Assembly (NCBI RefSeq): GCF_022538185.1
Contig: NZ_JAKYXC010000002.1
Location: forward strand, 558,001-622,000
Reading direction: 5' to 3'
DNA from: Microbacterium sp. CFH 31415
GTDB lineage: Bacteria; Actinomycetota; Actinomycetes; Actinomycetales; Microbacteriaceae
Length of the DNA stretch: 64,000 bases
Below the pieces are notes generated by a model. The model had not been told where the DNA came from. It worked only from the letters and a program-made list of their open reading frames with translations, and did no database searches. Shown piece by piece: positions 60,888 through 63,044 of the stretch. The stretch's first letter is position 1, and every line of letters starts with the position of its first letter. The position numbers were made by a program, and so were the translations under genes.

Positions 60888-60934
60888 TCCGGTCGGGATG
60901 ACAGGAATTGAACCTGCGACCCCTTGACCCCCAG
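60888..60934. repeat. Distal copy of the tRNA-Pro 3'-end direct repeat (att site)
   Basis: Forty-seven bases identical to 62998-63044 except A60907 versus T63017. It covers the tRNA-Pro 3' half from the anticodon loop to just past the 3' end. It lacks the 5' half, so it is not a functional tRNA. Expected product of site-specific integration into the tRNA gene. Confidence 0.9.
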
Positions 60935-61108
60935 GCCGGTCAGGTAGTTCCAATCTCTCTGAGAGGCCCGGTTCTCTCTCGGTCTCCGCCGGATATCTCT
61001 TGCTGTTGCCGATGTTTTTCCAGGGCTTCTGTGACGCGACTGTGACTAGTCGGTTTCGCTCCCCGTCTCGGGGTGTAGCCCGTACTCCGTGCTACAAACG
61101 GAGGTTAG
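60935..61108. other. Gene-free island end
   Basis: No protein-coding gene supported. Contains a small CCCCG-TCT-CGGGG hairpin near 61063-61076. Relatively T-rich segments (around 60995-61020) contrast with the chromosome. It may be the eroded remains of an integrase region, but no frame can be recognised. Confidence 0.4.
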
Positions 61109-61402
61109 TTAGCGCAGGTCGTCCTCGGTGATCAGACCGAGTTCGATGCACCGCCGTTGCTGGCGAGCCCGCGTCGTCGCCCGGTTGTAGTTCAGGATCA
61201 TCGAGACGACGAACGCCACAATGCCGATAACGATCACCAGGCCGAAGTTCTGGTTGAGCCCGGCCACGATCGCGATGATGAACGCGATCACCCACACGAT
61301 GAACCGCCAGATGCCGAGCGCGTTGAACCGGCGCCAGAGCATCTGGAACTCCGGGTCAATCCGTAGGATGGCGTTGGCTTGCGCCTGCCTCAGCGGGTCC
61401 AT
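61109..61402 (-). CDS. Small membrane protein of the mini-island
   Basis: Unrecognised 97-residue protein with two adjacent transmembrane helices (about 33-50 and 52-71) flanked by basic residues, a soluble N-terminal helix (R-Q-A-Q-A-N-A-I-L-R) and a charged tail. The start overlaps the upstream gene stop by one base (TGATG), so the two are translated together. Confidence 0.75.
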   Translation of the reverse strand: MDPLRQAQANAILRIDPEFQMLWRRFNALGIWRFIVWVIAFIIAIVAGLNQNFGLVIVIGIVAFVVSMILNYNRATTRARQQRRCIELGLITEDDLR

Positions 61403-62358
61403 CAGAGGGTGATGTAGGAGCCATACGCGGTGGCGTACAGCGTGCCGGTGTAGGAGTCGGGCACCTGGTAGATCACCGTGGCCACGCCCGTCTGACCCTC
61501 GTACAGGTCGTTCAGGTCGTAGGTCTGGTTCCAGCCGTCGGGCAGGACCACCATGCTGGAGTTCTCGGCGATGAGGGTGCCGTCCTCCTGCGCGAGGGTC
61601 CAGTCGTACAGGAGCATCGACGCGCTGGCGGGCTCAGTCTTGTTCGCGCCGGTGATGGTGTAGTCGACAGCCACGTAGTGGTAGCCCTCCTGCGCCGGGT
61701 CGTTGAACTGGTTGGCCTGCGCGATCACAGCGTCGGCGTCGGCGGACTTGATGGCCACCGACACCTCGGCGAGGGTATTGTCCTCGTCGCCCTGGAAGAT
61801 CGATGCCACGTAGCCCTTCGGGTGCGGGTTTTCCAGCGATCCGGCCTCGGGGGCGGCGGGCTCCTCGGCGGGCTCCTCTTCGGCGGGCTCCTCCTCGACC
61901 GAGTTGCCCACGTCGGTCTTGGTGTCGTCGATCGCGTCATTGACGGCACCGGCGGCGAGGGCGATAAACACGGCGACGCCGACGATGGTGCCGACCACCG
62001 AGACGATGATCGCGGTCAGACCCTGCCACTTCGGCTTGTCCTTCATGAACAGGGCGACGATGCCGAGGATGAAGCCGATCGGCAGGAGAATCCAGCCGAT
62101 GATGAGGGCACCGGGGATGCAGGCGAAGATGAAGCCGACGGCCGAGATGGCCAGGGCGACGATGCCCAGAACATTGCGGGGCTTCTCTTCGGGTGCGGGA
62201 GAAAGTGGGGCGGCAGGCACGGAGTCGGTCGCCGTGGCGATGCCTCCGACAGGACGCACGTGGTCGGTCCACGCGGTCCCGTCCCAGTAACGTTCCTGGC
62301 CTTCAACGCCTGCGGGGAACCATCCTGCGGGTGCGGATGTAGGGGTCGAATCGGTCAA
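61402..62358 (-). CDS. DUF2510-type membrane protein with extracytoplasmic C-terminal domain
   Basis: Protein of 318 residues. The N-terminal motif G-W-F-P...R-Y-W-D-G-T-A-W-T-D-H (about 11-35) is the DUF2510 signature. Three hydrophobic segments follow (about 62-80, 82-102, 113-137), then a Glu/Pro-rich linker and a C-terminal beta-rich domain of about 130 residues resembling DUF4352-like modules. TTG 62358 is chosen because GGGAGGGA lies 7-8 nt upstream. Similar proteins are frequent in actinobacterial prophages; function unknown. Confidence 0.8.
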   Translation of the reverse strand: MTDSTPTSAPAGWFPAGVEGQERYWDGTAWTDHVRPVGGIATATDSVPAAPLSPAPEEKPRNVLGIVALAISAVGFIFACIPGALIIGWILLPIGFILGIVALFMKDKPKWQGLTAIIVSVVGTIVGVAVFIALAAGAVNDAIDDTKTDVGNSVEEEPAEEEPAEEPAAPEAGSLENPHPKGYVASIFQGDEDNTLAEVSVAIKSADADAVIAQANQFNDPAQEGYHYVAVDYTITGANKTEPASASMLLYDWTLAQEDGTLIAENSSMVVLPDGWNQTYDLNDLYEGQTGVATVIYQVPDSYTGTLYATAYGSYITL

Positions 62359-62594
62359 AGCTGTTCCCTCCCACGGAAAAGGCCACGTCCAGCGACGTGA
62401 CCCCAGTACACGAGTGCTCACCAAGCAAGGAGCGAGCTAGCGAGAGTTTATGAGAACGCCCTCATCAAACCCGCGACTTTGGCTCAGTTTTCAGCCAGGC
62501 CCCGATCGGAGTGAGCGGAAAGGCCCCACGGTTCCCCGCAATCAGGCACCTCTAACCGGGATTTGAGTCAATAGAGGTGGAGGAGGTGATCGAG

Positions 62595-62870
62595 ATGACG
62601 ACGCTGAATCCCTACGCACTCGAGGAGGCTCGGGCCGCGGACGGCATCGACGTGTGCGACCCGCGCCCCGCGGCTGAGCAGACCGCGGACCAGCCATTGC
62701 CGCCGATCATCGAGGGCGGCAACCCGGCGATTCACCTGGCGCACGGCGTCTGCCAGCGGGACGTCCCGTCGTGGTGCGGCATCGCGCTCGATCAGCATTA
62801 CCAGCGCACCGCTCGCGCGTGCGAGGCGGCGGGCACTCCGATCGAACCCAACACATTCGTCGAGGGTTAG
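62595..62870 (+). CDS. Small Cys-containing island protein
   Basis: Unrecognised 91-residue protein. The start ATG 62595 is decided by a perfect ribosome site AGGAGGTGAT ending 4-5 nt upstream. Four Cys occur (V-C-D-P, V-C-Q-R, W-C-G-I, A-C-E-A), and the composition is soluble and acidic. It is typical of small phage or island cargo genes. A hairpin terminator follows. Confidence 0.65.
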   Translation: MTTLNPYALEEARAADGIDVCDPRPAAEQTADQPLPPIIEGGNPAIHLAHGVCQRDVPSWCGIALDQHYQRTARACEAAGTPIEPNTFVEG

Positions 62871-62956
62871 CGGCGGGCCGGCAACGCCGCACGACCCAGC
62901 CGCACCCATCTGGTCGACGCAGTCTCAGGCAGACGTGTGATTGCCTGAAAACGACA

Positions 62957-62999
62957 AAGACCCGGAACCCGCGACTTCCGCGTGATTCCGGGCCTTTTC
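62957..62999. terminator. Bidirectional terminator between the island gene and tRNA-Pro
   Basis: CCCGGAA (62961-62967) pairs with TTCCGGG (62986-62992), with an inner CGCG pair. GGCCTTTTCC follows on the plus strand and TCTTTGTCG on the minus strand. It lies inside the island, downstream of both the small gene and the tRNA. Confidence 0.75.
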
Positions 63000-63044
63000 C
63001 GGTCGGGATGACAGGATTTGAACCTGCGACCCCTTGACCCCCAG
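62998..63044. repeat. Proximal copy of the direct repeat, within tRNA-Pro
   Basis: Forty-seven-base partner of 60888-60934. It ends exactly at the first base of the anticodon loop of tRNA-Pro, so the integrated element restores a complete tRNA. Confidence 0.9.

Follow-up and report, generated by a model that had tools for sequence, protein, structure and literature searches.

A 2.1-kb repeat-bounded insert without a detectable integrase at tRNA-Pro(GGG) in Microbacterium sp. CFH 31415, a probable CIME-like relic

Elements of the pSAM2 type target the 3′ end of a tRNA-Pro gene in an actinobacterium. The insert described here, a mini-island at tRNA-Pro(GGG) of Microbacterium sp. CFH 31415, differs from them in having neither an integrase nor a transfer gene. 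Its features fit the cis-mobilizable elements (CIMEs), a class defined in PMC5704250. As described in the accessible part of that source, CIMEs share with the mini-island att-like ends, the absence of integration and transfer genes, a site that is also used by intact elements and a locus at which copies lie in tandem, whereas the mini-island differs in spanning only 2.1 kb, in having three genes and in being known here from sequence alone.

At ssrA in Dehalococcoides, 15 islands bounded by repeats have been described, some of them without an integration module (PMC3146451, in the portion available). As in our case, their bounds are repeats of the 3′ end of an RNA gene and the islands occur with or without an integration module; there, however, the target is tmRNA and the integrases are serine integrases, as against tRNA-Pro and mostly tyrosine integrases here, and the cargo differs. 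Similarly, TR1/TR2 of Streptomyces represent, in the available text of PMC8369830, an actinobacterial CIME beside a putative ICE with an att site between them. TR1, however, measures 20 kb and has a neighbouring mobilising element, whereas our window, by which we mean the entire 64-kb stretch of DNA analysed, holds no integrase-bearing element.

The finding is real and of a known kind, and its value lies in marking one extreme of a decay series, at a hotspot, where it would show how small an att-bounded relic can be. A single tRNA site in one genus offers empty sites, elements of tens of kb that bear conjugation-like genes, islands whose integrases are broken and units with no integrase found. 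From this series one can follow, over many genomes, how integrative elements decay, and the cargo gives a hint of what may be retained by a host once mobility is gone.

The repeat pair, the target tRNA and the site in relatives

ARAGORN placed an intact tRNA-Pro(GGG) gene, the sole tRNA of the window, at 63001..63076 on the minus strand. The repeat finder paired an att-like copy on the tRNA side, consisting of the tRNA 3′ half plus 3 nt (62998..63044, repeat family D2), with a distal copy at 60888..60934 that is identical at 46 of 47 nt (98%), at a start-to-start spacing of 2,110; on a naive uniform-base expectation, about 3e-17 such pairs would occur in 64 kb. The 47-bp copy begins within the anticodon loop and stops 3 nt past the tRNA 3′ end. 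No third copy was found in the window by a scan allowing up to 12 mismatches over a 44-base core, and a 35-base pattern with up to 3 mismatches recovered only these two in the whole genome. The repeats enclose a unit of 2,110 bp with three small genes, and the stretch 60888-63044 has a G+C content of 64.2%, against 69-70% outside.

Behind the tRNA and within the insert lies a terminator-like hairpin (62956..62997, minus strand), identified by folding and by a terminator scan; the fold of 62920-63010 gave a z of -5.7, a value for that whole stretch. The unit's left end, beside the tRNA half, reads GCCGGTCAGGTAGTTCC. The 174 bp that adjoin the distal copy (60935..61108), in which no gene was called, have a G+C content of 58% and contain two CTGTGAC copies 11 bp apart, which from their sequence are possible candidates for recombinase arm sites. 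Arm sites shared by both ends of the unit were also considered; the words common to the two ends are no more numerous than in shuffles, and we therefore make no arm-site claim.

Two relatives carry the site in its empty form. In G381 and G237, the homologue of the left anchor gene (58168..58614, minus strand) ends 199 bp and 90 bp, respectively, from the tRNA core and is followed by a terminator-like hairpin, recognised by eye, and then by the tRNA. The right anchor, a GNAT acetyltransferase gene (63209..63796, plus strand), is conserved beside tRNA-Pro, on its 5′ side, in these two and in many other relatives. The initial annotation had described a 47-bp direct repeat with one mismatch that copies the tRNA-Pro 3′ half from the anticodon loop, had read it as att-like architecture produced by insertion at an intact tRNA and had proposed to look for empty sites; the tRNA call, the repeat pair and the two empty sites bear this out.

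Given the empty sites, the stretch of about 58640-62997 is accessory. It consists of two parts: a segment with alpha/beta hydrolase and SDR genes (58640..60887), which lies outside the unit, has no att repeats and is absent between the anchor and the tRNA in G381 and G237, and the att-bounded mini-island. Judged by comparison with these relatives, the 2,110-bp unit is a lineage-specific insert at tRNA-Pro; to go by the segment 58640-60887, changes at the locus also occur where no att repeats are visible.

The closest relative found by region, G143, is 89-93% identical in the neighbouring genes and flank, a difference of 7-11%. It has neither the mini-island nor the distal repeat, and a DNA search of its whole genome returned only short pieces of the insert. 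It does share the hydrolase gene, the only gene of the hydrolase/SDR segment common to both genomes at the same place. At the site, this sister genome has a 103-codon ORF directed toward the tRNA, which can be aligned, at 31% identity, with the C-terminal part of the L193 integrase (residues 307-402 of 431), and a 39-bp stretch beside its hydrolase gene resembles the unit's terminator region (88%). The earlier description of the att sites as recent is plausible, in that the unit is absent from this sister and its two copies differ at 1 of 47 positions, against 7-11% in the neighbouring genes and flank. The dating is weak, and one mismatch in 47 bases dates nothing firmly.

Gene content of the insert

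Two of the three genes likely form an operon, because they overlap: the start of a gene for a 97-aa predicted membrane protein (61109..61402, minus strand) overlaps the end of a 318-aa gene (61402..62358, minus strand), whose product combines a DUF2510 motif, three predicted helices and a DUF4352/MPT63-like beta-sandwich and which, as read from the sequence, opens with TTG after GGGAGGGA. The third gene (62595 or 62577..62870, plus strand) encodes a near-orphan of 91 aa, or 97 aa if it starts at 62577, and lies on the same side and strand as the integrase in most other islands. In the protein database, the 91-aa protein has one homologue besides its own entry (47%) and the 97-aa membrane protein has two (63-65% identity); the former was not found in 20 chosen genomes, in a search run without a positive control, and the latter obtained only sub-cut-off scores (NfeD membrane, E 0.00096; SLATT, E 0.014). 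Neither small protein matched phages or viral contigs in searches of both, and tblastn against 271 loci recovered them in loci of their own genome only.

The insert as a whole matched no phage, and its one partial match was a gene for a DUF4352 protein on a conjugative plasmid of Arthrobacter. None of the three genes has a recognised role in replication, packaging or transfer. The nearest approach to a transfer gene was one conjugation-protein score far below the cut-off (12.8 bits against 150), and PHROGs and Pfam searches of the three proteins found no replication, packaging-diversion or capsid-remodelling family of the kind that marks phage satellites. For the DUF2510 protein, the PHROGs matches have no assigned function except for a single head-closure score (E 0.069). 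An anti-phage defence reading of the insert was set aside: PADLOC recognised no defence gene in the unit, its best score being E 0.041, and the SLATT-like score of the 97-aa protein is sub-cut-off.

The 318-aa protein matches the DUF2510 motif of Pfam at E 1.7e-9 and does not match the Pfam DUF4352 model itself. Its outer domain is modelled as a beta-sandwich of the fold typical of DUF4352/MPT63-like extracytoplasmic proteins, among which we would place it. Foldseek matched the domain to MPT63 (1lmi, E 8.2e-4) and to a phage DUF4352 protein (E 1.4e-6), in both cases with a target-normalised TM of 0.55, and to further phage DUF4352 proteins and lipoproteins. The structure model has a mean pLDDT of 77.8 and a pTM of 0.46; blocks of the outer domain mostly lie at pLDDT 82-95, with values of 50-70 at residues 211-220 and 261-280.

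In a first comparison, the outer domain was 70% identical to the viral contig L238, the next loci reaching about 30-39%, and the membrane part was closest to Microbacterium proteins (66-79%); on these matches, the protein appears to be a patchwork. A wider search found outer-domain matches in 70 of 366 genomes, the own genome included, the best others being in Microbacterium G399 (69%) and G271 (49%), and a 72% match over 46% of the query to protein P0018 of a short contig. Because of the matches in G399 and P0018, the outer domain is, as far as sequence similarity goes, not phage-specific, and by the same measure the wider search weakened the contrast between a viral-like outer domain and a Microbacterium-like membrane part. 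Across the wider family, the outer domain is joined to varied N-termini, some of which resemble lipoprotein signals by eye.

The viral contig L238 carries tail-like and recombination-like genes, assigned by eye, and no integrase was identified in the stretch examined. Microbacterium phage Cen1621 encodes a 34% relative of the outer domain, at a distance of three genes from a serine integrase. When the L238 protein served as query, its DUF2510 motif stood at an integrase gene in 16 of 20 mycobacteriophage records among the matches listed, these 16 matching the short DUF2510 stretch only and including near-copies; in mycobacteriophage Phoebe, the gene with the motif overlaps the integrase gene. 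The window's own DUF2510 protein matched only 2 phage records. A literature search in which most subscription journals were not covered found no work linking DUF2510 to phage.

In Streptococcus phage TP-J34, the exclusion lipoprotein gene ltp adjoins int (PMC3952083, available part). Given the fold, the integrase neighbourhoods in phages and this arrangement of ltp and int, the DUF2510 protein possibly acts at the cell surface, for example in superinfection exclusion, by analogy. As far as that source describes it, Ltp is a surface-anchored phage protein beside int, much as DUF2510 genes lie at mycobacteriophage integrases, but its anchor differs from that of the DUF2510 protein, and the likeness drawn here is one of context.

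Elements and recombinases at the tRNA-Pro site

A pattern search of 366 Microbacterium genomes found truncated tRNA 3′ halves at 58 places in 54 of them. The pattern required a break after CCCCCAG, with a next base other than T, and the 58 places are a floor, because copies followed by T or carrying mutations would be missed; a reversed control pattern gave 0 among the matches listed. The base after the truncated copy, equivalent to position 60935, is G in 56 of the 58 and A in 2, though the ends differ further on. A mismatch scan without the next-base constraint gave 54 distinct half copies, 52 of them followed by G and 2 by A, at loci mostly chosen via the truncated-copy pattern. By their post-break sequence, the elements group into gcgtcc, gtagac, gtggta and others; the sequence of our unit, gccggtcagg, stands alone among the elements compared, and matches to its distal 179 bp, found in 2 of the other 365 genomes, are no longer than 22-26 bp.

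The elements vary widely in extent and number. The repeat copies lie 44 and 67 kb apart in G017 and G039, with conjugation-like genes, judged by eye, near the tRNA end, and there are two or three truncated copies per genome in G207 and G240. For instance, three truncated copies in a row form a tandem array at G240:C1:41646-56083 (L217), which encloses units of 11.5 kb and 2.9 kb and in which only integrase C-termini were found. An earlier report of this tRNA-Pro hotspot was not found in a literature search that left most subscription journals uncovered, and the nearest match concerns Propionibacterium.

Among 38 chosen cargo proteins of other units (L114, L115, L194, L195 and others), matches were obtained to Avs3a, AbiE and DNA methyltransferase models. 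Other island cargo includes a Cap4-nuclease/STAND protein and, by eye, SIR2-like and CHAT-like proteins. Metabolic genes also occur (38 chosen proteins, 25 of 46 families listed).

We tabulated 33 units bounded on both sides, drawn from stretches of up to 20 kb at chosen loci, a subset of the 58 places that favours small units because of this length limit; genes were called with a simple script based on G+C by codon position. Fourteen units have a near-complete recombinase, 12 have fragments only, and in 7, the mini-island included, none was found. A near-full-length tyrosine integrase on the plus strand is present in 12 of the 33; L220 has a probable integrase at its far end (35% identity with residues 85-387 of the 431 of L193), and in L100 the integrase is of the serine type (Pfam Recombinase, E 1.8e-13). 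Where present, integrases lie mostly on the tRNA side. The other units without a detected integrase are L194a, L195, L207, L212a, L223a and L227, the Pfam check of such units having covered some tRNA-side ORFs and the 38 chosen cargo proteins. At 2,110 bp, the mini-island is the smallest of the 33, followed by units of 2,925, 3,422 and 3,607 bp.

The fragment-only units mostly retain the C-terminal part of the integrase, usually adjoining the tRNA (L102, L192, L194, L196, L205, L206, L208, L216, L217, L231 and L236). It is as though repeated losses had removed the 5′ part of the integrase gene and spared the att end.

Fifteen of the tyrosine integrases and fragments belong to one family, at least 48% identical in the listed pairs, and those of L193 and L228 are outsiders at 23-31%; this count leaves out L219 and L233, of 21 entries, which match the host's own DprA at 50-52%. 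In the mini-island itself, tblastn with 16 tyrosine recombinases, 13 of them from the tRNA-Pro site, found no recombinase, and Pfam found none in the three proteins. Seven PF00589 loci occur in the own genome, none of them inside the window, and none resembles the site's main integrase family at family level. Four could be aligned with site integrases, the best identities being about 23-33% in the longer alignments and at most 45% in those of fewer than 60 residues; L178-L180 gave no alignment, in a search that possibly missed short fragments. The nearest PF00589 gene, about 9.6 kb to the right of the tRNA and beside parA and scpA, is read as a putative XerD, and another, beside dprA and rpsB, as a putative XerC, both names being given by eye and synteny. 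As no resident integrase of the main family was found, the mobility of the unit is unproven; a resident recombinase of another type could conceivably fit the unit's ends.

Origin of the insert and a second class of elements

In terms of the CIME definition, the insert has attL- and attR-like bounds, as judged from the 46/47 repeat and the truncated copies in 54 of 366 genomes, and has neither an integration gene nor a transfer gene. It is quite probably the leftover of a larger integrative element that lost its recombinase, that is, a CIME-like relic. The larger element likely entered by site-specific recombination in the anticodon loop. Its incoming end likely rebuilt the tRNA 3′ half and brought the terminator now within the insert, so that the tRNA would have stayed intact, and the displaced 3′ half would mark the far border. 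The recombinase gene would have been lost later, leaving as cargo what is likely a two-gene operon and a near-orphan gene. Since the DUF2510 protein has its outer domain in common with a viral contig, a temperate phage or phage-like element was possibly the source. Showing no gene for its own movement, the unit would be carried only if an element at the same site supplied a recombinase.

Loss of an integrase was one of two options posed by the initial annotation, which had correctly noted three small genes and no integrase between the repeats. It is favoured because broken integrases are common at the site (12 of the 33 bounded units); as the unit itself retains no integrase fragment, it is its neighbours that point to the loss. 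No parent element was found, nor does any other element at the site match the unit's distal end. Larger islands with an integrase do exist there, as had been anticipated; the further expectation that they would carry the same genes failed for the two small proteins, which among the 271 loci occur only in those of their own genome.

The other option was a minimal cargo cassette mobilised in trans, with functional att ends served by the integrases of other tRNA-Pro elements, so that one of its own was never needed. We regard it as unlikely. The near-identity of the repeats, the six other bounded units without a detected integrase and the tandem copies in G240 and G207, by which elements stack at the site, would agree with it, but no own PF00589 locus resembles the site's main integrase family at family level, the 97-aa and 91-aa genes occur in no other locus examined, and the distal end is unlike that of integrase-bearing elements. 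The missing main-family integrase also removes the ground for calling the att sites still active and, together with the absence of recognised replication, packaging or transfer functions in the three genes, for calling the unit satellite-like. A related and rather improbable proposal is that the unit is a self-contained minimal cassette of two att ends, a tRNA-rebuilding terminator and a phage-derived surface operon, which any tRNA-Pro(GGG) element could carry; were this true, superinfection-exclusion cargo would spread across Microbacterium without a recombinase of its own.

A tandem-array remnant, in which copies that were not neighbours underwent deletion or excision and one element's left end was thereby joined to the right end of another, would accord with the two or three truncated copies in G207 and G240, the pieces of a different element at the same place in the sister G143, the similarity of the terminator region to the 39-bp stretch beside the hydrolase gene of that sister and the patchwork DUF2510 protein; it is distinctly improbable, since it needs extra events and no second junction or scar is visible within the unit. 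An origin of the distal repeat without integration, as a chance tRNA pseudogene or by local duplication, has a probability close to nil: nothing specific favours it beyond the flank past the repeat being itself accessory, which hides the original junction, and against it stand the 54 of 366 genomes with truncated copies, the many genomes with integrase genes close to the tRNA and the empty sites in two relatives.

Apart from the presumed relic, a second class of elements, found at 12 loci of other Microbacterium genomes (L101, L102, L194, L195, L199, L208, L210, L222, L226, L236, L103 and L105), splits the tRNA-Pro of the host, within the anticodon loop or just beyond it, and leaves the 5′ half behind, with a complete tRNA-Pro(GGG) 33-44 bp from this remnant. 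The arrangement in the accessible part of PMC3119063, a complete tRNA beside the integrase with a truncated copy downstream, is not one of a split and replaced tRNA. Such split-and-replace elements may outrank the mini-island as a finding. In the complete tRNA of 10 of the 12 loci, both bases of one anticodon-stem pair are exchanged in a compensatory manner, from CTTGA/TCAAG to CCTGA/TCAGG, a change present in 0 of 19 ordinary tRNA-Pro copies (Fisher p 1.5e-6, ignoring relatedness). The stem change may make the new tRNA a poorer target; against this reading, the 5′ remnant is itself of the changed type in L102 and L236.
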